Shown one piece after another: positions 41,673-63,736 of a stretch of 64,000 bases of DNA; positions within the stretch are counted from its first letter, which is position 1; each line of letters opens with the position of its first letter. This DNA comes from Pseudofrankia inefficax. Its GTDB lineage: Bacteria; Actinomycetota; Actinomycetes; Frankiales; Frankiaceae. The notes beneath the pieces were generated by a model, which did not search any database, was not told the origin of the DNA, and saw only the letters and a list, made by a program, of their open reading frames with translations. Both the position numbers and the translations under genes were made by a program. The stretch spans positions 6,634,001 to 6,698,000 of the forward strand of contig NC_014666.1 of assembly GCF_000166135.1 (NCBI RefSeq), given 5' to 3'.

Positions 41673-42872
41673 ATGAAGGTCACGGCCGTGACGGAACTGT
41701 ACTGGGACCCGTTCGACAAGACGATCGACGTGGACCCGTACCCGGTGTGGCGCCAGATGCGCGACGAGACACCGGTCTACCGCAACGAGAAGTTCGACTT
41801 TTACGCGCTCTCGCGGCACAAGGACGTCGACGACGCCCACCTGGACCCGGACACGTTCAGCTCCGCACACGGAACAGTGCTGGAGATCATGGGTCCGGAC
41901 GCCCTGGACACGGGCCTCATCATCTTCATGGACCCGCCCGCGCACACGATGATGCGCGTGCTCGTCTCGCGCGGCTTCACGCCGCGGCGGATCGCGGCGC
42001 TCGAAGAGCACATCCGCAAGCTGTCCGCCGAGATGCTCGACCCGCAGATCGGCGGGTCCGGTTTCGACTACGTCCAGGACTTCGCCGCGCAGCTGCCCTC
42101 GAAGGTCATCTCCGAGCTGATCGGCGTCGACCCGGCGGACCGCGAGGAGGTTCGCGAGGCGATCGACGCGTCCTTCCACCTGGACCCGGAGAAGGGGATG
42201 ATCAACGACATCTCCTTCATGGCCCAGATCAAGCTGCACGAGTACTTCTCGGAGCAGATCGACGCGCGCCGGAAGAACCCGCGCGACGACGTGATGACCG
42301 CGCTCACCGAGGCCGAGATCGGCGTCGGCGCCGAGGCCCGCCGGCTCACCACCAAGGAGGCGGCGGACTTCACCAACCTGCTCGTCTCCGCCGGCACCGA
42401 GACCGTCGCCCGGCTGCTCGGCTGGGCCTGCTCGCTGTTCGCCCAGCACCCCGACACCCGCGCCGAGCTCGTCGCCGACCCGTCGCTGCTGCGCGGCGCC
42501 GTCGAGGAGACGCTGCGCTACGAGGCGCCGTCGCCCGTGCAGGGCCGCTGGACCACCCGCGACGTCGAGCTGTACGGCGAGACGATCCCGGCGAACTCGA
42601 AGGTGCTGCTGCTGACCGCGTCGGCGAACCGCGACGCGCGCAAGTACCCGGACGCCGACACCTACGACATCCGGCGCTCGTTCGACAGCCACGTGGCCTT
42701 CGGGCACGGCCCGCACTTCTGCCTCGGCGCGTCGCTCGCCCGGATGGAGGGCCGGGTCGCCCTGGAGGAGACGCTCAAGCGGTTCCCGACGTGGGAGATC
42801 GACACCCCGAACGTCGAGCGCCTGCACACCAGCACCGTCCGAGGCTTCGCGAAGCTCCCCATCCTGCTGTAG
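41673..42872 (+). CDS. Cytochrome P450, paralogue of 31110-32309
   Basis: 399-residue P450 with AGTET at 240-244, Glu279-x2-Arg282 and haem ligand Cys350 in FGHGPHFCLGAS, all at the same positions as in the 31110-32309 paralogue. Long stretches are identical, for example FDYVQDFAAQLPSKVISELI. ATG at 41673 gives equal lengths; a GTG at 41688 with GAAGG upstream is an alternative. No ferredoxin gene is adjacent, so electrons probably come from a shared ferredoxin elsewhere. Differences cluster near residues 72-90 and 160-190, which in P450s border the substrate pocket, so the two may act on related but different intermediates. Confidence 0.9.
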   Translation: MKVTAVTELYWDPFDKTIDVDPYPVWRQMRDETPVYRNEKFDFYALSRHKDVDDAHLDPDTFSSAHGTVLEIMGPDALDTGLIIFMDPPAHTMMRVLVSRGFTPRRIAALEEHIRKLSAEMLDPQIGGSGFDYVQDFAAQLPSKVISELIGVDPADREEVREAIDASFHLDPEKGMINDISFMAQIKLHEYFSEQIDARRKNPRDDVMTALTEAEIGVGAEARRLTTKEAADFTNLLVSAGTETVARLLGWACSLFAQHPDTRAELVADPSLLRGAVEETLRYEAPSPVQGRWTTRDVELYGETIPANSKVLLLTASANRDARKYPDADTYDIRRSFDSHVAFGHGPHFCLGASLARMEGRVALEETLKRFPTWEIDTPNVERLHTSTVRGFAKLPILL

Positions 42873-47112: not shown

Positions 47113-47220
47113 CCGGCCGCTCCGGCCTGGCGCCGCCGTACTCGGCCTGGCCGCCGTCGCGGCGCGGCTGGCCAGGGCGGTCGTCTCTTGCACCGCGCGG
47201 GGCATCGCGGGGACTATGAG

Positions 47221-47240
47221 TTTTGACGTCGATGTTGAAA
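47221..47240 (+). promoter_or_regulatory. Family I operator-like site before the CoA-transferase gene
   Basis: TTTTGACGTCGATGTTGAAA, with symmetric TTT/AAA ends and a TCGA core. It lies 48 bases upstream of the CoA-transferase ATG at 47288. Confidence 0.5.
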
Positions 47241-47287
47241 CCCCGGCCCGGCGGGCTCCCCGGGCGAGGTGGGCTGGGAGGCTCTCG

Positions 47288-48502
47288 ATGACCGCGGTGA
47301 TGCAAGGTGTACGCGTCCTGGAGGTCGCCGAGCATACGTTCGTACCCGCCGCGTCGGCCCTGTTAGCCGACTGGGGCGCGGACGTCATCAAGATCGAACA
47401 TGTCGAGCGCGGCGACGCGATGCGCGGCCTGGCCGCCTCCGGCACCGTGGACATCCCGTCGGACGTCCACGTGCTGTTCGAGCACTCGAACCGCGGCAAG
47501 CGCAGCCTCGCCCTCGACCTCACCTCGCCCGAGGGCCTCGACATCGTCTACAAGCTCGCGGCCACCGCGGACGTCTTCCTGACCAACAAGCTGCCCCTGG
47601 TGCGCACCAAGCTGAAGGTCACCCTTGACGACATCCGGGCGCAGAACCCGAACATCATCTACGTCCGCGGCACCGGCCAGGGCGAGCGTGGCCCCGAGGC
47701 CGACCGCGGTGCCTACGACTACCTGGCATTCTGGATGCGCAGCGGCGCCGCCCTGGGGGCCACCGCCGCCGACGCGGCCGTCGTCAACGGGCCGCCCGGG
47801 CCGGGCTTCGGCGACTCGATCGGGGCCCTGACGATCGCGGGCGGGATCATGGGCGCCCTGTTCCACCGGGAGCGCACCGGCGAGGCGACCACGGTCGACG
47901 TCTCGCTGCTCAGCGCCGGCCTCTACACGATGGGCCAGGCGGTGGCACTGTCGATGCTGACGAAGAAGCCCTGGCAGGGGCCGCCGTCCGGCCACCGCAG
48001 CAACCCGCTCGTCGGCAGCTACCAGACGAAGGACGGCCGGTCGCTGGCCTTCTCCTGCCTGCAGGCTGGCCTCTACTGGGGCCCGGCGTGCGCCGCGATC
48101 GGCCGCCCGGAGCTGGCCACCGACCCGCGCTTCGCCGACCACGGCGCGCTGATGGCCAACAAGATGGAAGCCTCCGAGATCCTGGCGGCCGAGTTCGCCT
48201 CCCGAGACCTGGACGAGTGGAAGGAACGGCTCGCCGACTTCCCGGGCCAGTGGACCGTCGTCCAGCACACCCTCGAGGCCGCCGCAGACGCGCAGAGCAT
48301 CGCCAACGGCTACGTCCAGGAGCTGGAGAACGCCGCCGGGGTGCCGTTCCACCTCAGCGCCGCACCGGTGCAGTTCAACGAGGAGGCGCACCACCCGAGG
48401 CGGGCGCCGGACTTCAACGAGCACGCCGAGGAGATCCTCGGGGAGCTCGGCCTGGACTTCGACGCGGTCCTGGACCTCAAGGTCCGCGGCATCGTCGCCT
48501 GA
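47288..48502 (+). CDS. CaiB/BaiF family CoA-transferase, paralogue of 14755-15969
   Basis: 404-residue family III CoA-transferase. It starts VRVLEVAEHTFVPAASALLADWGADVIKIE, has SNRGKRSLALDL, and keeps the catalytic Asp in AYDYLAFWMRSG. This unusual form of the active-site motif and the overall length are shared with the protein at 14755-15969. ATG at 47288 has GGGAGG 5 bases upstream; the frame is open to 47216 through the operator. It is followed after 52 bases by an acyl-CoA ligase, giving two alternative routes to a CoA thioester in one operon. Confidence 0.88.
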   Translation: MTAVMQGVRVLEVAEHTFVPAASALLADWGADVIKIEHVERGDAMRGLAASGTVDIPSDVHVLFEHSNRGKRSLALDLTSPEGLDIVYKLAATADVFLTNKLPLVRTKLKVTLDDIRAQNPNIIYVRGTGQGERGPEADRGAYDYLAFWMRSGAALGATAADAAVVNGPPGPGFGDSIGALTIAGGIMGALFHRERTGEATTVDVSLLSAGLYTMGQAVALSMLTKKPWQGPPSGHRSNPLVGSYQTKDGRSLAFSCLQAGLYWGPACAAIGRPELATDPRFADHGALMANKMEASEILAAEFASRDLDEWKERLADFPGQWTVVQHTLEAAADAQSIANGYVQELENAAGVPFHLSAAPVQFNEEAHHPRRAPDFNEHAEEILGELGLDFDAVLDLKVRGIVA

Positions 48503-50124: not shown

Positions 50125-50961
50125 CTAGTCGGGGATGGCGCGGAGGTACTTCGCCATGGCCAGGGGGGTGACGGTCAGCACGCCGGAGTCGACGGGCAGG
50201 GTGACGCCGGTGACCCAGCGGGCGGCATCGCTGGCCAGGAAGGCGACCGACTCGGCGACGTCCCAGCCGTCGCCGGGCGTGCCGAGCAGGCCGGCCTCGT
50301 TGCGCAGCGTCGTGACGTACTGGCTGTCCTGCCCGGGGATCGACCGGACCATAGGGGTGACGATGTGCCCCGGGGCGATGGCGTTGACCCGGATGCCCTG
50401 GCGTCCGTGCGTGTACGCCATCTCGACGGTCATGGCCAGCATCGCGCCCTTGGCGGCCGAGTAGGCGATCGTGCCGTCGCCGCGCAGCGCCGAGATCGAC
50501 GAGATGTTGACGATCGAGCCCGAGCCCTGCGCCGCCATCACAGGCACCGTGTACTTGCAGGCCAGGAACATCGTCCGCAGGTTGATGTCGAGGGCCCGGT
50601 CCCACTCCTGCTCGGTGATGTCGACGACGTCGCCGACCGAGGCCATGCCGATGTTGTTCACCAGGATGTCGACGGTCCCGAACGCCTCGACGGCGGCGGC
50701 GACCATCGCCTCGCAGGCCGCGGCCTTGGTGCAGTCGCCGGCGAACACCTCGGCCCGGCCGCCGTCGGCCTCGATCAGCTTGCGGGTCTCCTCGGCCCGC
50801 TCGGCGTGCAGGTCGACGAGCAGCACGCTCGCGCCCTCCCGCGCCAGCACGGCCGCGCTGGCCTTCCCGGTCCCGACGCCCTCCCCCGGTGTCGAACCAG
50901 CCCCCGTCACGATCGCGACCTTGTTAGCCAGTCGCCCGTCGGTCCGTCCGCCCATGGTCAC
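50125..50961 (-). CDS. SDR family oxidoreductase
   Basis: 278-residue classical short-chain dehydrogenase. The cofactor loop GAGSTPGEGVGTGKAS is longer than usual, NNIGMAS follows, and the catalytic Ser-Tyr-Lys are in ISSISALRG and IAYSAAKGAM. The start is GTG at 50961, with AGGAAAG a few bases upstream; ATG at 50955 is an alternative. It lies 57 bases downstream of the aldolase gene on the same strand and is probably the third gene of the DUF35-aldolase operon. It may act on the aldehyde or ketone released by that aldolase. Confidence 0.87.
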   Translation of the reverse strand: MTMGGRTDGRLANKVAIVTGAGSTPGEGVGTGKASAAVLAREGASVLLVDLHAERAEETRKLIEADGGRAEVFAGDCTKAAACEAMVAAAVEAFGTVDILVNNIGMASVGDVVDITEQEWDRALDINLRTMFLACKYTVPVMAAQGSGSIVNISSISALRGDGTIAYSAAKGAMLAMTVEMAYTHGRQGIRVNAIAPGHIVTPMVRSIPGQDSQYVTTLRNEAGLLGTPGDGWDVAESVAFLASDAARWVTGVTLPVDSGVLTVTPLAMAKYLRAIPD

Positions 50962-51000: not shown

Positions 51001-51040
51001 GTCAGCGCGGCCAGCTGGTCAGCGCGGCCAGCTGGTCAGC
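51001..51040. repeat. 17-bp tandem duplication at the 3' end of the aldolase gene
   Basis: GTCAGCGCGGCCAGCTG occurs twice in a row (51001 and 51018) with a partial third copy. The duplication spans the stop codon of the aldolase gene at 51019-51021 and so may have arisen by slippage. Confidence 0.8.
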
Positions 51041-52215
51041 AGCGCCGCCCCGGCCTCGTAGCCGCCGACGCTGGTCACGGCCGCGACCCGCGCGCCCGCG
51101 ACCTGCCGCTCGCCGGCCTCACCGCGCACCTGGCGGACCGCCTCGGCCGTGTGGCCGAAGGCGGCGTGCAGCCGCCCGCCGGACAGCTGCCCGCCCCACG
51201 TGTTCAGCGGCAGCTCGCCGCCGAGGCTGATCCGCTTGCCGCCCTCGACGAACGCCCCCGCCTCGCCAGGCCCGCAGAAGCCCATCGCCTCCAGCCACCA
51301 GACGGCCTCGATGGTGAAGCCGTCGTAGAGCTCGGCGACGTCGACGTCTCCCGGACGCAGGTCGGTGCGGGCCCACATCGCGGCGGCGGTGGCGTAGCCG
51401 ACCCGGCCGAAGTCCTCCCACTGCTCCCAGCTCGGCCGGCCGTCCACCACGCCGGCCATCGTCTCGATGCCGACCGGCGCCCGCAGGTCGGCGGCGGCCT
51501 CGGCCGCCGAGACGACGATCGCGGTGGCGCCGTCGAGCGGGACGTCGCAGTCGTACAGGCAGATCGGCGACGAGATCATCCGGGAGGCGAGGTAGTCGTC
51601 CAGCGTGAGCGGCGAGCGGTAGACGGCGTCCGGGTTCAGCGCCGCGTGCGCCCGCTGCGTCACCGGGATCCAGCCGAGCTGCTCGCGGGTCACGCCGTAC
51701 TCGTGCATGTACCGGGCGGCGTACGGCGCGAGCTGGCAGACCGGGGACAGCGCGCCGACCGGCAGCAGCCAGGCGAGCGGCCCCTCCGCGGTCGGGTTCG
51801 TCGAGCCGTACGCGGGCCGGCCGCCGGCGTTGCGCGCGGCGCTGCCCTCCTTGACGGTCCGCCAGATGACGACGTGCCGGGCCTGGCCGGTCGCGACCGC
51901 CATCGCCGGACCGTAGAACGGCAGGCACATCCCTTCGATGATCCCCTGCCGCCAGCTGGTCGTGATCCGCAGCGCGTCCTGGATCTCGTAGAGGTTGCCG
52001 TTCGCGTAGCCGGGCACGTTGGCCTTGCCCCCGCCGGGGAACATGGCCAGCCCGTCGATGTCGTCGACGGTCAGGCCCGCGTCGGCGATGGCGGCCAGGA
52101 TCGCGTCGATCGTCAGCTGGAACCCGGAGCGGTCGAGCTGGCGCCCGATGGCCGACTGGCCGATCCCGGAGATCACCGCGCGCCGCTCGAACAGCTCGCT
52201 GCCCACGGCGCTCAC
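51019..52215 (-). CDS. Ltp2-like aldolase (thiolase-fold lipid-transfer protein)
   Basis: 398-residue thiolase-fold protein related to the C-terminal part of the fusion at 33616-35244. It shares LYDCDVPLDGA, ELYDGFT, LNTWGGQLSGGRLH and GEAGERQVAGA blocks. The thiolase Cys position reads QGIIEGMCLPFYGPA, with no CASG-type motif, so retro-aldol cleavage as in Ltp2 is more likely than thiolysis. The start is GTG at 52215, overlapping the DUF35 gene by 4 bases (GTGA), the coupling expected for an obligate DUF35-aldolase complex. The frame is open to 52521 but that part belongs to the DUF35 gene. Confidence 0.85.
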   Translation of the reverse strand: MSAVGSELFERRAVISGIGQSAIGRQLDRSGFQLTIDAILAAIADAGLTVDDIDGLAMFPGGGKANVPGYANGNLYEIQDALRITTSWRQGIIEGMCLPFYGPAMAVATGQARHVVIWRTVKEGSAARNAGGRPAYGSTNPTAEGPLAWLLPVGALSPVCQLAPYAARYMHEYGVTREQLGWIPVTQRAHAALNPDAVYRSPLTLDDYLASRMISSPICLYDCDVPLDGATAIVVSAAEAAADLRAPVGIETMAGVVDGRPSWEQWEDFGRVGYATAAAMWARTDLRPGDVDVAELYDGFTIEAVWWLEAMGFCGPGEAGAFVEGGKRISLGGELPLNTWGGQLSGGRLHAAFGHTAEAVRQVRGEAGERQVAGARVAAVTSVGGYEAGAALLTSWPR

Positions 52216-52688
52216 GCCCCGGCCACGGCGACGAAGCTGGGGACCGAGTAGGCCCGCTCCTGGCCGTCGAGGAAGCAGGTGCCCGGTCCGGGCTCGAAGC
52301 CCACGTCGACGCTCATCCCGATCGTCGCCTCCTCTGGTGGGCAACCGCGCAGCCGCCCGAGGACCCGGACGCCCGGGTGGCCGTCGAACTCGACCAGGAC
52401 CAGCGCGTAGGGCACCTCGAGCCCCGGCAGCCAGCGCTGGTAGTTGACCGTCAGGCTGTAGACCTGGCCGCGCCCGGTGATCTCGACCGGTTCGGTCGAC
52501 CGGCTCCGGCAGGTCCTGCACACTCCGTACGGCGGGAACGACTCGGCGCCGCAGTCCTGGCAGCGCTCGACCAGCAGCCGCCCCTCGGCCGCCCCCGCCC
52601 AGAACACCGCGGTCTCCTCGGTGACGGACGGTGGGATGCCGGGAACCACCGCGGCCGAGTCCGGGCTGGTAGGGCCGTTGGCGGTCAT
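52212..52688 (-). CDS. DUF35 OB-fold zinc-ribbon protein, partner of the Ltp2-like aldolase
   Basis: 158-residue DUF35 protein with zinc-ribbon pairs CQDCG and CRTCR and a C-terminal OB fold. It resembles the N-terminal part of the 33616 fusion (for example VNYQRWLPG against VNIQQWLPD), so this pair is the unfused version of that protein. ATG at 52688 has GAAGGG 6 bases upstream. It is the first gene of a DUF35-aldolase-SDR operon transcribed from a divergent promoter with a family IV palindrome. Confidence 0.87.
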   Translation of the reverse strand: MTANGPTSPDSAAVVPGIPPSVTEETAVFWAGAAEGRLLVERCQDCGAESFPPYGVCRTCRSRSTEPVEITGRGQVYSLTVNYQRWLPGLEVPYALVLVEFDGHPGVRVLGRLRGCPPEEATIGMSVDVGFEPGPGTCFLDGQERAYSVPSFVAVAGA

Positions 52689-52725
52689 GGGCACCCTTCG
52701 AGCCGGTGACAGCGAAGACTTACGG

Positions 52726-52739: not shown

Positions 52740-52879
52740 TAGCAATCTAGCGCCTCGACGCCCCGGGTACACCGTTCGTCGTGCAGTGCCTGTTTGACCT
52801 GCACAGCCCTGGTCGTCGTGCACAGTCTGTCCGTCCTGAGCGCGGCGCCCGTGCCGCGCTCGACGTGAAGGAGCTCCGG

Positions 52880-53884
52880 TTGCCTGATCGCATCGTCTTC
52901 GGCGCGGCCGCGCTCCCCGAGCCGGAGCGCCACTGGCTCGCCGCCGTCGAGCGCCTGCCCATCGAGTCGGTCTGGCAGGGCGGCCACGTGCTGCCGCCGA
53001 CCGGCACCGGCGAGGCCATCACCCGGCTGGCCCTGATGACCGCGTGGACGGAACGGGTCCGGGTGGGCACCGCGATCCTGCTGCTGCCGCTGTACCAGCC
53101 GGTGATCGTCGCGAAGCAGCTCGCCGACCTGGACGCCCGCTCCGGCGGTCGGGTCTCGGTCGGGCTGGGCGTCGGCGGCGAGTTCAAGCACGAGTTCGAC
53201 TCGGTCGGCGTCCCGATCACCGAGCGGGGCGCGCGCACCGACGAGGCGATGGTGCTGCTGCGCGAGCTGTGGCGCGGCGAGCCGGTCACCCACCACGGGA
53301 AGTACTTCGACGTCGAGGACGTGACGCTGCGCCCGGTCACTCCTCCGCCGCCACCGGGCTCGACCAGTGGTCCCGCAGGCGGCCAGCCCGGCGGCCCGCC
53401 GCTGCTGGTCTCCGGGCGCAAGGCCCCGGCGATGCGGCGCGCGGCGCGGCTGGGCGACGGCTGGATGCCCTACCTGATGTCGCCGAGCGCCTATGCCCGC
53501 TCGGTCGAGACGATCAGCGCCGAGGCCGCGGCCACCGGCCGGGACCTCGGCGGGTTCGAGTGGATGATGTACGTCTACTGCTCGGTCCGGGCCGACGGCG
53601 ACCGGGCCCGCGCCGACGTGGCCAGCTTCCTCGGGGGTGCCTACGGCGACAAGCCCGCGTCGATGCTCGACAAGATCGCGCCGTCCGGGACGCCGGAACA
53701 GGTCGCGGCCCGCCTGCAGGAGTACGTCGACGCGGGCGTGCGGCACTTCGTCATCTCGCCGGCCGCGCACGAGGACACCCTCGAGGTCGTCCAGCTCGCC
53801 GCCGAGGAGGTCCTCCCCCGGCTGACCCTGCCGGCCGGGGGCGCCGCTGGACCGGTGATCACTACCGCCGGGGCCGCGTCATGA
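52880..53884 (+). CDS. LLM-class F420-dependent oxidoreductase
   Basis: 334-residue luciferase-like oxidoreductase with GTAILLLPLYQPVIVAKQLA, the SGGRVSVGLGVGGEFKHEF loop and a C-terminal GVRHFVISPA segment. TTG at 52880 is chosen because AAGGAG lies 6 bases upstream; the frame is open to 52781. An insert of Pro, Gly and Ser at about residues 156-172 is unusual and probably a surface loop. Its stop overlaps the ATG of the double CoA-transferase gene (ATGA), so the two proteins are co-translated. Confidence 0.85.
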   Translation: MPDRIVFGAAALPEPERHWLAAVERLPIESVWQGGHVLPPTGTGEAITRLALMTAWTERVRVGTAILLLPLYQPVIVAKQLADLDARSGGRVSVGLGVGGEFKHEFDSVGVPITERGARTDEAMVLLRELWRGEPVTHHGKYFDVEDVTLRPVTPPPPPGSTSGPAGGQPGGPPLLVSGRKAPAMRRAARLGDGWMPYLMSPSAYARSVETISAEAAATGRDLGGFEWMMYVYCSVRADGDRARADVASFLGGAYGDKPASMLDKIAPSGTPEQVAARLQEYVDAGVRHFVISPAAHEDTLEVVQLAAEEVLPRLTLPAGGAAGPVITTAGAAS

Positions 53885-56313
53885 CCCCGGCGGCACCCGG
53901 TCCGCTCGCGGGGCTGCGGGTCATCGAGATCGCCGTCGGTGCCAGCGACCTCGGGCTGGGCCTCGCGGGCGGGGTGCCCGGGATGCTGCTGGCCGGGCTC
54001 GGCGCGCAGGTCACCCGCGTCGTCGGGACCGCGCCCCTCGCCATCGACGCGGGGCTGCCGTGGGGCGAGGCCTGGCACCGGGACAAGCGGATCGTCACGA
54101 CCGACGACGCCGAACCGGTCCGCACCCTGCTCGCGGACGCCGACGTCGCGCTCGCCTACGGGCCCGAGGACCTGGTCGAGGGCCGCGGCCTGGGCTTTCG
54201 GGACCTGACCGGCGTCAACCCGCGCCTGGTCTACGCCCGCTGCCGGCCGAGCCGGACGTCGCTCGGCGCCGTCGAGGACTACGGGCTGCTCGTCGAGGCG
54301 CGGTCCGGATTCTGCACGCAGCTCACCGGCCATCGACCGGGCCCGATCTTCGTCGACGTCCGGGCGCCCGGCACCGGCACGGCGGGCCTGCTGACCGCGT
54401 CGGTCCTCGCGCTGCTGCGCCGCCGGGTCCTGACCGGCGCGGGTGGCTGGGCCGAGACGTCGCTCTACGACGGCATGCTCGCCACCCTCGGCTGCATGAT
54501 CGGACGCTCCGAGCGGGCCAGGCCCGAGGTCGAGGGGTACTGGGAGTTCGGCTCGACCTTCCCGAACTTCCTGTACCGCTGCGCCGACGGCGAGCTGCTC
54601 CAGGTCTGGTTCGGCGGCAAGGGCATGTACGCCAAGCTCATCGACGTCCTCGGCGACGAACCGTCGACCGAGGGCTACTACGCCGACCAGTCCTCCGGGA
54701 AGCTGCAGGATCGCGCCCTGCGGTGGCGGGCCCCGTTCGCCCTGCGTCCCCGCGACATCTGGCTGCGCCGGCTGCGCGACGCCGGAATCGCCTGCGAGCC
54801 CGTCCTCAACCCGGGCGACGCGTTGACCGACCCGCACCTGGCCGAGACCGGCCTCGCCGTCACCCGCGACCGCGACGGCCACCGCGAGACCTTCGTGGGC
54901 TCGCCCCTCTCCGTCGGCCCGCTGCCCTCGGCGACCCCCGCCGACCAGCCACCGGCTCCCGCCGGCCCGGCGCAGATTCCCGCCGACCCGGCGCCGGTGA
55001 CCGAGGCGCCAGCGGGCGGCTCGGGCGGCACCGCGGTGGGTGGACTGCTCGCCGGGGTACGCGTGCTGGACTTCTCCGCGTTCGTGGCCGGTCCGCTGGC
55101 CGCGCAGGTGCTCGCCGATCTCGGCGCGGAGGTCGTGAAGGTCGAACCGCCGGAGGGTGAGGCGATGCGCGCCGCGGCCTACGCCGTCGCGGCCTGCCAG
55201 CGCGGCAAACGCAGCCTGGCGATCGACATCACCGCGCCCGAGGCCCGGCCCGTGGTGGAGAGCCTGGTTCGCTGGGCCGACGTCGTGCTCCACAACTTCC
55301 GGGTCGGCGTCGCCGAGCGCCTCGGCATCGGCGCGGCGGACGTCGCCGCGCTCAACCCGTCCGCCGTCTACTGCCACGCCAGCGCGTTCGGCGCGCACGG
55401 GCCGCGGGCGAAGCAGCCGGGCAACGACGCGCTGATGCAGGCGGTCACCGGGCTGGAACAGGCGATCGGCGGCGACGGCAACGAGCCGATCGCGGCGACC
55501 TGGATCCCGATCGACGTCGCCGGTGGCTGGCTCGCGGCCACCGGCATCCTCGCCGGCCTGTACGCCCGTGCGACGACGGGCACCGGCCAGCAGGTGGGCA
55601 GCAGCCTGCTCGGCGCCGGGATGCTCATGCAGTCCGGCTCGTTCCAGCGCGACGGCGAGCTTGTCCGAGGCCCAGCCCTGGACGCGGCCCAGACCGGCTA
55701 CGGTCCCGGCTACCGCCTCTACCAGGCCGGCGACGGGGAATGGTTCGCGCTGGTCCTTCCGGACGAGCGCTCCTGGGCCACGCTGCGCGGGCTGCTCGCT
55801 GCCAGCGGGCCAAGCGCTGGCGAACCTGCTTCGCCGGCCGGTCCGGAATCCCGTGCCGACGACGTCCTGGCGACCTGCGCGCCACTGCGCGGGGGCATTC
55901 TCGACCAGGAGGCTCGCGAGGCGGAAAGCCTCCTGGAGAAGGCCTTCTCCACCGGTACCGCCGCCGAGTGGGTGGCACGGCTACGTGCCGCGGGCCTTCT
56001 GTCCGAGCTGATCGCGCCGGCGACCAGGGACGACTTCCGCCGTGGCATCCTGGACGATCCGCTGAACCGCCAGCTCGGCCGGGTCGCGGCGTACGACGTG
56101 GCCGACTGGGGTCATTTCGAACAGATCGGCCCGCTCCCCCGGCACGACCAGAGCCCTGCACGGCCTTCCCAAGCGGGTCGCGCCGAAGCGCGGGGCCCAG
56201 GGCTGGGGCTGCCCAGCATCGGCGAACACTCCGTCCAGGTCCTGGCCGAGCTCGGCCGTCCCGCCGACGAGATCGACGCCCTCCTCGCCAACAAGATCGC
56301 CCGCCAGCTCTAG
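53881..56313 (+). CDS. Double-domain CaiB/BaiF CoA-transferase fusion
   Basis: 810-residue protein with two CaiB-like units. Residues 1 to about 350 start LRVIEIAVGASDLG, and residues about 385-810 start VRVLDFSAFVAGPLAAQVLADLGAEVVKVE, joined by a Pro/Ala-rich linker. In the second unit the catalytic Asp is present (GNDALMQAVTG). In the first the equivalent position is Gly (DYGLLVEARSG), and the CoA-binding RGKRS block is altered to RDKRI, so the first unit is probably structural. CaiB enzymes are interlocked dimers, so the fusion could form a pseudo-heterodimer with one active site. The start overlaps the LLM gene stop (ATGA). Confidence 0.85.
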   Translation: MTPAAPGPLAGLRVIEIAVGASDLGLGLAGGVPGMLLAGLGAQVTRVVGTAPLAIDAGLPWGEAWHRDKRIVTTDDAEPVRTLLADADVALAYGPEDLVEGRGLGFRDLTGVNPRLVYARCRPSRTSLGAVEDYGLLVEARSGFCTQLTGHRPGPIFVDVRAPGTGTAGLLTASVLALLRRRVLTGAGGWAETSLYDGMLATLGCMIGRSERARPEVEGYWEFGSTFPNFLYRCADGELLQVWFGGKGMYAKLIDVLGDEPSTEGYYADQSSGKLQDRALRWRAPFALRPRDIWLRRLRDAGIACEPVLNPGDALTDPHLAETGLAVTRDRDGHRETFVGSPLSVGPLPSATPADQPPAPAGPAQIPADPAPVTEAPAGGSGGTAVGGLLAGVRVLDFSAFVAGPLAAQVLADLGAEVVKVEPPEGEAMRAAAYAVAACQRGKRSLAIDITAPEARPVVESLVRWADVVLHNFRVGVAERLGIGAADVAALNPSAVYCHASAFGAHGPRAKQPGNDALMQAVTGLEQAIGGDGNEPIAATWIPIDVAGGWLAATGILAGLYARATTGTGQQVGSSLLGAGMLMQSGSFQRDGELVRGPALDAAQTGYGPGYRLYQAGDGEWFALVLPDERSWATLRGLLAASGPSAGEPASPAGPESRADDVLATCAPLRGGILDQEAREAESLLEKAFSTGTAAEWVARLRAAGLLSELIAPATRDDFRRGILDDPLNRQLGRVAAYDVADWGHFEQIGPLPRHDQSPARPSQAGRAEARGPGLGLPSIGEHSVQVLAELGRPADEIDALLANKIARQL

Positions 56314-62515: not shown

Positions 62516-63634
62516 CTACCGGACGGCGCCGGCAGCCCGCAGGCTGGTTACTTCTTCGGCCGAGAACCCCCAGTCGGACAGGGCCTCGTCGGTGTGCTGC
62601 CCGGGGGCGGGCGGCGGGCCGGCAACCGCCGGCGGGGTCCGGCTGAACCGCGGGGCCGGAGCCGGCTGGACCACTCCGGCGACCTCCGTGAAGGTGCCGC
62701 GGTGGCGGATGTGGGGATGGTCCGGAGCCTCGCCCGGGTCGAGAACCGGGGCGAAGCAGACGCTGGTGCCGTCGAACGTGGCGCACCACTCGTCGCGGGT
62801 CCTGGTCCGGATCACCGCGGCGAGGCGCTCCTTCGTGGCCGGCCAGGACGACCGGTCGTCGGCGCCGGGATCGACGTCGGTCAGCTCCGCGAGCTGCCGG
62901 CGGGCCTTGGGGTCGATCGCCCCGAGCGAGAGGTACCGGCCGTCGGCCGTCTCGTAGGCGTCGTAGAACCAGGCGCCGCCGTCGAGGAGGTTGGTGCCCC
63001 GCTCCCCCCAGTCGCCGGCCGCCCGCAGGCCGTGGATCATCCCGGACAGCAGCGCGGCACCGTCGACCATGGCGGCGTCGACGACCTGCCCCTGGCCGGA
63101 GCGGGCGGACTCGAGCAGGGCGCACACGATGCCGAAGGCGAGCAGCAGCCCGCCCCCACCGAAGTCGCCCACGATGTTGACCGGCGGCACCGGCGGGACG
63201 CCCGGCCGCCCGACCATGGCCAGGGTGCCGGCGAGAGCGACGTAGTTGATGTCGCGCCCCGGCGCCTGCGCGTACGGGCCGTCCTGGCCCCACCCGGTCA
63301 TCCGCCCGTAGACGAGTCCCGGCCGGCGGGCCAGGCAGTCGTCGGGCCCGAGCCCGAGCCGCTCGGTGACACCCGGGCGGAACCCCTCGATGAGCACCTC
63401 GGCGTGCTCGACCAGCCTGAGCACGGCCTCCCGCCCGTCGGCGTGCTTGAGGTCGATGCCCACCGACCGACGGCCGCGGGCGTTCACGTCCCAGGAGGGC
63501 GCCTCGGCACCGACGCTGTCGGCCCGGTCGACGCGGAGCACCTCGGCGCCCATGTCGGACAGCATCATGGCGGCGAACGGCCCGGGGCCGATGCCAGCCA
63601 GCTCGACGACGCGGTAGCCGCGCAGCACGCTCAT
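62516..63634 (-). CDS. Alpha-methylacyl-CoA racemase-like CaiB family protein lacking the catalytic His
   Basis: 372-residue protein very similar to alpha-methylacyl-CoA racemase, the enzyme that inverts the 2-methyl centre of branched acyl-CoAs before beta-oxidation. Diagnostic blocks are RDINYVALAGTL, NIVGDFGGGGLLL and QGQVVDAAMVDGAA. Mycobacterial racemase uses His126, Asp156 and Glu241; here Asp157 is kept, but the His in GHDINY is Arg127 (codon CGC, one base from CAC), and Glu241 appears to be Asp. It may therefore be inactive as a racemase or have changed function. ATG at 63634 is used; the frame is open to 63673. The promoter has a family IV site. Confidence 0.87.
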   Translation of the reverse strand: MSVLRGYRVVELAGIGPGPFAAMMLSDMGAEVLRVDRADSVGAEAPSWDVNARGRRSVGIDLKHADGREAVLRLVEHAEVLIEGFRPGVTERLGLGPDDCLARRPGLVYGRMTGWGQDGPYAQAPGRDINYVALAGTLAMVGRPGVPPVPPVNIVGDFGGGGLLLAFGIVCALLESARSGQGQVVDAAMVDGAALLSGMIHGLRAAGDWGERGTNLLDGGAWFYDAYETADGRYLSLGAIDPKARRQLAELTDVDPGADDRSSWPATKERLAAVIRTRTRDEWCATFDGTSVCFAPVLDPGEAPDHPHIRHRGTFTEVAGVVQPAPAPRFSRTPPAVAGPPPAPGQHTDEALSDWGFSAEEVTSLRAAGAVR

Positions 63635-63653
63635 ACCGCCGCCGCCTCTGATA

Positions 63654-63667
63654 AGCGTGCGTTCACT
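63654..63667 (-). promoter_or_regulatory. Family IV operator-like site
   Basis: AGCGTGCGTTCACT, 20 bases upstream of the racemase-like gene's ATG. It is nearly identical to AGCGTGTATTCACT at 19198. Confidence 0.5.
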
Positions 63668-63736
63668 CTGCAAGCCCTTCGATGCTCCGCCTCACGGGTC
63701 CCGACCTGGTCCTCGCCGGTGGGCCGACGCCCGGCC

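Follow-up and report, generated by a model that had tools for sequence, protein, structure and literature searches.

A fused double class III CoA-transferase of Pseudofrankia inefficax with both family aspartates in its C-terminal half only

Introduction

What does one half of a fused double coenzyme A (CoA)-transferase do when the catalytic aspartate is found only in the other half? The question is raised by a gene at positions 53881-56313 of a 64,000-nucleotide stretch of Pseudofrankia inefficax DNA (contig NC_014666.1, positions 6,634,001 to 6,698,000 of the forward strand), the whole of which we refer to as the window. A first-pass annotation had read the product as two fused CaiB-like halves, of which only the C-terminal half (C-half) carries the catalytic Asp and the N-terminal half (N-half) has Gly in its place, and had proposed an asymmetric enzyme with a regulatory or substrate-specific site. 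We consider it likely that each chain of the protein forms an asymmetric class III CoA-transferase with a single working centre, in which the N-half serves as a built-in partner. If true, it would offer a natural example, with one chain and one site, of an enzyme class whose members are normally rings with two sites, and half-site and interface questions in class III CoA-transferases would therefore be testable by point mutations in one gene.

Results

A double CoA-transferase with Gly in one half and Asp in the other

The features of the gene are as follows, all on the plus strand of the window.

53881-56313: fused double class III (CaiB/Frc-type) CoA-transferase, 810 amino acids; ATG-started open reading frame with two CoA_transf_3 stretches
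53902-54930: N-half, residues about 8-350; canonical catalytic Asp replaced by Gly; low-confidence model has the CaiB/racemase superfamily fold
54283-54285: Gly135 codon, site of the canonical catalytic Asp; Gly in 19/19 sequences
54370-54372: Gly164 codon, site of the second conserved Asp (Asp545 of the C-half); Asp in 0/43 doubles and 0/3 further doubles
54550-54570: N-half small-domain loop GSTFPNF, residues 224-230; corresponds, in a hand alignment, to the GNxH loop of YfdE and is expected to face the active site of the C-half
54931-55041: Pro/Ala-rich linker, residues 351-387, variable in the ortholog alignment; predicted local distance difference test score (pLDDT) below 50 at 355-386
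55042-56310: C-half, residues 388-810, predicted catalytic class III CoA-transferase half from sequence and fold matches
55426-55428: Asp516 codon, canonical catalytic Asp (GNDALMQA); Asp in 19/19 sequences of the clade and 11/11 of the sister clade
55513-55515: Asp545 codon, second conserved Asp, counterpart of residue 178 of BbsEF chain B; 43/43 doubles and 3/3 further doubles
55690-55716: loop QTGYGPGYR in the small domain of the C-half, residues 604-612; expected to lie opposite the N-half site, and invariant in 19/19

That both halves belong to the CaiB family, as the annotation had it, is confirmed by PF02515 (CoA_transf_3), which matches the protein in two stretches with 394.1 bits against a cut-off of 23.3 (whole-protein E-value 8e-118); a Pfam scan of the 810 residues returned no further domain. 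In phmmer searches, the C-half lies nearest to formyl-CoA transferase and other CoA-transferases, and we take Asp516 as the canonical catalytic residue because its motif GNDALMQA aligns onto the catalytic-Asp motif of formyl-CoA transferase chains and of Rv3272. Matches of the N-half, to alpha-methylacyl-CoA racemases and CoA-transferases, are weaker (best E-value 1e-12), and the solved sequences nearest to it are those racemases. None of the seven NCBIfam equivalog models listed, which cover succinate-glutarate, mesaconate, formyl-CoA, oxalate and carnitine CoA-transferases, exceeded its cut-off; the best score was 152.9 bits against 750.

A genome scan gave 23 loci, of which 11 are full-length relatives (best-segment identity 62-90%) in Frankia, Pseudofrankia, Parafrankia, Thermomonospora, Amycolatopsis, Actinomadura and one actinomycete metagenome-assembled genome. 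With the N-half as the query, matches at E-values of 1e-40 or lower were found in 14/35 genomes of the bacterial family and 15/393 of the class, and 82 of 396 phylum genomes matched at 1e-12 (best outside the window's own genome, 2e-25), where the class and phylum scans scored only four candidates per genome and absences are weak accordingly. After removal of repeats of L001-L008 (L067, L069-L072, L074, L079/L093 and L094) and of the incomplete sister-clade copy L081, there remained 19 distinct sequences, counting that of the window double; they form one clade with a Shimodaira-Hasegawa-like approximate likelihood ratio (SH-aLRT) of 100. Eleven similar doubles make up the sister clade (SH-aLRT 100), and the join of both is likewise supported at 100; since the tree gave long-branch warnings for own-genome paralogs and distant doubles, only these two ingroup clades are relied on. 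All 19 sequences have a single open frame, which rules out an assembly or frameshift artefact.

Gly135, in the motif DYGLLVEA, occupies the canonical site of the N-half in 19/19 sequences of this clade, and the survey of homologues thus found the Gly conserved; the canonical Asp of the C-half is present in 19/19 and, over both clades, in 30/30. In these alignments, the Gly/Asp split is not a matter of chance. The sister clade, to which the window's genome contributes its own copy (L084, G000:C1:6599473), shares the layout and the C-half Asp, with N-half identity of 44-48% (12 rows), and differs in having Glu (10/11) or Asp (1/11) at the site of Gly135 and an N-half loop of the QGP type instead of GSTFPNF. 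Gly135 is probably derived, because the more distant doubles L047 and L032 bear Asp at the canonical site in both halves, with the deep tree unsure through long branches. An alignment slip at Gly135 was considered and thought unlikely, as D[YF]G-LLVEA aligns ungapped with DLE/GLE followed by LLxxA/ILLAA in the sister clade, a rejection limited by a three-residue gap that directly precedes the N-half motif when it is compared with canonical sequences.

The window's genome (G000) holds 63 CoA_transf_3 matches, including 11 fused double proteins, and the 22 halves of these doubles carry D, E, G, A, P or H at the canonical site; annotation by one catalytic Asp is therefore unreliable. The fused double L038 (G366:C23) has Ala at the canonical site of both halves and keeps the second Asp in its C-half. 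Among single-domain CaiBs, L170, L171, L172 and L200 have Gly or Ala at the catalytic Asp site and keep the second Asp; three of these four rank within the top six of the 36 by score. One genome carries two Gly-type doubles, with N-halves 96% and 68% (L080, G428:C100:7329-8393) identical to that of the window.

A second aspartate and further motifs separate the halves

The asymmetry between the halves extends beyond one residue in the sequences compared. Asp545 lies 29 residues after Asp516, and Gly164 stands opposite to it in the N-half. This second Asp is present in the C-half of 43/43 aligned doubles and in the N-half of 0/43; three doubles from Rhodococcus plasmids agree (3/3 and 0/3), giving 46/46 versus 0/46. 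The 46 doubles comprise 43 from the window's phylum and three from Rhodococcus plasmids (H1, H2 and H4, of six plasmid records with at least 77% cover); they were picked by similarity to the window double or from one genome, which is no survey of all bacteria. From the distant phylum loci, four long frames were aligned (L038, L039, L041 and L047), and L012-L023 were left uncounted as doubles. The canonical position is less uniform, with Asp in 33/43 C-halves and Asp, Glu, Ala or Gly as the residues that C-halves may have there. Of the 36 single-domain CaiBs of the window's genome, a set that leaves out the adjacent pair L034, 33 have the second Asp and 30 the canonical one.

In a manual pairing of the halves, E422, P423, N472 and F473 of the C-half (each 19/19) stand opposite V48, G49, Y93 and G94; in that pairing, the N-half is without the residues of the VEP and NFR stretches of the C-half. 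The RGKRS block, which the annotation described as lacking from the N-half, is altered rather than absent: its counterpart is WHRDKR, with R67, D68 and K69 each at 19/19. An active-site Asp of the N-half was also sought at the sequence level, and neither of the two known Asp positions is acidic in the N-half of the window double. Our searches, made in the open-licence literature, found no paper on fused-double asymmetry, and within that literature the confinement of the second Asp to the C-half in the 46 aligned doubles appears to be novel.

The N-half is conserved

Identity to the 11 orthologs is 65-96% in the N-half and 68-92% in the C-half, and the ratio of nonsynonymous to synonymous substitution rates (dN/dS) in four ortholog pairs of the Gly-type clade is 0.07-0.26 in the N-half and 0.21-0.39 in the C-half. 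Decay of the N-half is ruled out by ortholog identities on a par with those of the C-half together with the low dN/dS; as judged from these comparisons, the N-half is under purifying selection and is no relic.

The distribution of conservation within the halves differs. Mean pairwise identity among the 19 sequences is 0.743 in the N-half Rossmann domain, 0.789 in the N-half small domain, 0.819 in the C-half Rossmann domain and 0.664 in the C-half small domain. With domain boundaries that we set ourselves and a bootstrap that resamples columns and ignores the relatedness of sequences, the small/Rossmann ratio is 1.06 (0.98-1.16) in the N-half and 0.81 (0.74-0.89) in the C-half, and 1.02 and 0.84 in the sister clade. 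Single-domain controls, built from two CaiB genes of the window with same-family homologs and mixing paralogs with orthologs, gave 0.82 (28 sequences) and 0.81 or 0.83 (29 or 24 sequences). By this measure, constraint on the small domain of the N-half is unusually high compared with that on its Rossmann domain. Such conservation fits a composite site, because each active site of YfdE combines Asp173 of one subunit with His233, a residue of the GNxH loop, of its partner (PMC3720670). Within the corresponding N-half loop GSTFPNF, G224, S225, F227, P228 and F230 are found in 19/19 sequences, N229 in 18/19 and T226 in 17/19. A substrate-specific role, as the annotation had suggested, is thus plausible in another sense: it would reside in an N-half loop that is predicted to face Asp516, near-invariant among the 19 sequences and of another type in the sister clade.

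Models of the full-length protein and of the N-half

The full-length AlphaFold2 model has a mean pLDDT of 77.5 and a predicted template modelling score (pTM) of 0.86, with the linker disordered at 355-386. VIA-align gave the C-half a Z of 24-27 against Frc, SUGCT, BbsEF chain A and CaiB, and of 19-20 against racemases. Because C-half matches filled the fold search of the full model, the N-half was modelled separately. Alone, it reached a pLDDT of 61 and a pTM of 0.53, and residues 121-170 and 191-220 dropped by 30 to 54 points, the two models having been built on different alignments (20 versus 12 rows). The fold matches of this low-confidence model, at Z 15-18.6 with a root-mean-square deviation of 12-14 Å, show the superfamily and not the domain arrangement. 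The drop in confidence is as expected if the blocks 121-170 and 191-220 fold against the C-half, and is no more than suggestive, because the alignments differed; the models thus indicate indirectly that the halves fit together within one chain.

Comparison with known systems

The nearest structural precedent is BbsEF, an asymmetric class III CoA-transferase with Asp at the canonical site of chain A and Gly149 in chain B. The window double is like it in having the canonical Asp in one half and Gly in the other. BbsEF consists of two separate chains, whereas the double is one open frame in its 19 sequences; moreover, in our reading, BbsEF has its canonical Asp on chain A and its second Asp, residue 178, on chain B, whereas the window double has both on the C-half and neither on the N-half, its Gly-bearing half having Gly164 at the second site. 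Protein Data Bank entry 9fol carries the title 'D178-CoA adduct', and residue 178 of chain B counts to the second Asp; if the numbering of the entry equals that of the sequence, the CoA adduct of BbsEF seems to sit on the second Asp of the Gly-bearing chain. Gly at the canonical site alone is therefore no proof of a dead half, which weakens that inference in the first-pass annotation; here, the N-half is without the second Asp as well. In the window's genome, the adjacent gene pair L034 (G000:C1:7868300-7871500) consists of a first gene whose product matches BbsEF chain B best (Gly) and a second whose best match is chain A (Asp).

DddD, a dimethylsulfoniopropionate CoA-transferase/lyase that acts on another substrate, likewise has two CaiB domains per chain, a likeness of domain layout; its catalytic Asp is presumably D602, in the C-half. 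The two domains of the Endozoicomonas enzyme span residues 1-416 and 439-821 of one chain (PMC7174347), and DddD requires a catalytic Asp (PMC4437653). Frc, YfdE, CaiB, SUGCT and Rv3272 have the fold and catalytic motif of the C-half and differ in being single-domain subunits, each with its own catalytic Asp. With BbsEF and DddD at hand, the design of the window double is known in outline, and the find is modest rather than startling.

Discussion

In the mechanism that we favour, the large domain of the C-half would bind CoA and bear the nucleophile Asp516 together with a second acid, Asp545. The N-half, having lost both Asps and most CoA-binding motifs, would be kept as the second member of the interlocked pair, built into the chain, with a small domain that closes the C-half active site and offers the clade-specific loop GSTFPNF to the substrate. 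Most likely, such an enzyme would transfer CoA from a cellular acyl-CoA to a carboxylic acid. The asymmetry proposed in the first-pass annotation, with one half devoid of the catalytic residue, is supported by the conservation and by the loss from the N-half of both family Asps and of CoA-binding motifs.

Several observations pull the other way. In two sister-clade pairs, dN/dS is slightly higher in the N-half (0.26, 0.34) than in the C-half (0.20, 0.25); a fourth control, of six close alpha-methylacyl-CoA racemase sequences, gave a small/Rossmann ratio of 0.96, nearer to the N-half value; and all these ratios depend on boundaries of our own setting. All 19 sequences have the N-half residues Asp133 and Asp159, the QTGYGPGYR loop on the C-half is likewise invariant, and the identity of the C-half small domain is no lower than that of the CaiB controls (0.642, 0.682). 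Since that loop is invariant and the domain around it control-like, the N-half site may still bind something. A ligand there (CoA, an acyl-CoA or the acid of the pathway) could regulate or gate the C-half site, which we regard as unlikely: the loop, the R67-D68-K69 stretch and the two invariant N-half Asps would suit it, but both family Asps and the VEP/NFR residues are gone, Pfam adds no further domain, and the conservation may be structural. The regulatory site of the annotation found no positive evidence beyond the hint given by this loop. About equally doubtful is another chemistry of the CaiB superfamily, that of a racemase, an isomerase or a DddD-like CoA-transferase/lyase. It would agree with the racemases nearest to the N-half and with DddD, likewise a chain of two CaiB domains, being a transferase/lyase (PMC4437653 and PMC7174347), but the C-half is nearest to CoA-transferases in sequence as well as in fold.

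Two further readings concern the C-half and the assembly of the chain. The real nucleophile of fused doubles could be Asp545, with Asp516 auxiliary, as would be consistent with the greater constancy of the second Asp in C-halves (43/43 versus 33/43) and with the D178 adduct on the Gly-bearing BbsEF chain. However, the second Asp may be structural because it is family-wide (33/36 single-domain CaiBs), the chain and numbering of D178 are our own deduction, and in YfdE/UctC it is the canonical Asp that has been proven as the site (PMC3720670); we hold this reading to be very unlikely. We give similarly little credence to the halves interlocking between two chains, as a domain-swapped homodimer, rather than within one: class III dimers normally comprise two chains, but the variable linker of about 37 residues permits the halves to pair within the chain, and the overall confidence of the single-chain model is good (pTM 0.86). 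A broader reading, that all fused double CaiBs are obligately asymmetric, with the C-half alone catalytic, the second Asp rather than the canonical one as the essential acid (46/46 C-halves, 0/46 N-halves) and the N-half a substrate-selecting cap diversified into many specificities, strikes us as quite improbable.

Genomic neighbourhood

The genes adjoining the double are the following.

50125-50961, minus strand: short-chain dehydrogenase (SDR), part of the conserved divergent module; 14/15 ortholog loci
51019-52191, minus strand: lipid-transfer-type thiolase (Thiolase_C_1, PRK07855-like); 82-99% identical in 14/15 ortholog loci
52212-52700, minus strand: DUF35/OB-fold (oligonucleotide/oligosaccharide-binding fold) protein (zf-ChsH2 + OB_ChsH2_C), divergent, start uncertain; 14/15 ortholog loci
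52841-53884, plus strand: luciferase-like monooxygenase (LLM)-class oxidoreductase, probably F420-dependent, start uncertain (longest open reading frame from 52781); TIGR03619 at 160.5 bits, just below the cut-off of 166.9

The co-translation with the LLM oxidoreductase gene proposed in the annotation agrees with a 4-bp overlap (ATGA) between that upstream gene and the double in the window. A start codon at the same overlap position is available in 10/11 orthologs (the exception is L006), and an LLM oxidoreductase, 72-95% identical, lies directly upstream in 15/15 ortholog loci examined. The SDR-thiolase-DUF35 module is located upstream on the opposite strand in 13 loci and downstream in L010, and is not in L008; in L009, an extra racemase-like gene lies between the module and the double. 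The double of a Rhodococcus plasmid also adjoins a thiolase and an OB-fold protein.

In the bbs pathway, the CoA-transferase BbsEF works with the dehydrogenase BbsCD and the thiolase BbsAB (PMC10818641). By analogy, the parallel suggests that an acid is activated by CoA transfer before a beta-oxidation-like cleavage, and the acid would then most likely be processed by the co-conserved SDR, the thiolase/DUF35 pair and the LLM oxidoreductase, as BbsEF is paired with BbsCD and BbsAB. Against the BbsA and BbsB models, the DUF35 protein and the thiolase score far below cut-off (31.7 bits against 250 and 105.3 against 750); the thiolase is nearer to lipid-transfer models, likewise below cut-off.

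In L008 (2790-5237 and 8001-10319) and L009 (1-822), a sister-type relative with about 43-44% identity to the double is found in the same locus. The presence of a Gly-type and a sister-type double at one locus may reflect one pathway with two CoA transfers. Elsewhere in the window, 47216-48502 encodes a single-domain CaiB and 62516-63673 a racemase-like CaiB; with these and a cytochrome-P450-like gene, the window has the look of a section of a catabolic island of lipid or steroid type. The cytochrome-P450-like gene, named by eye, occupies 41673-42872, and relatives 46-50% identical to it adjoin sister-clade doubles in L095, L098, L104 and L105.

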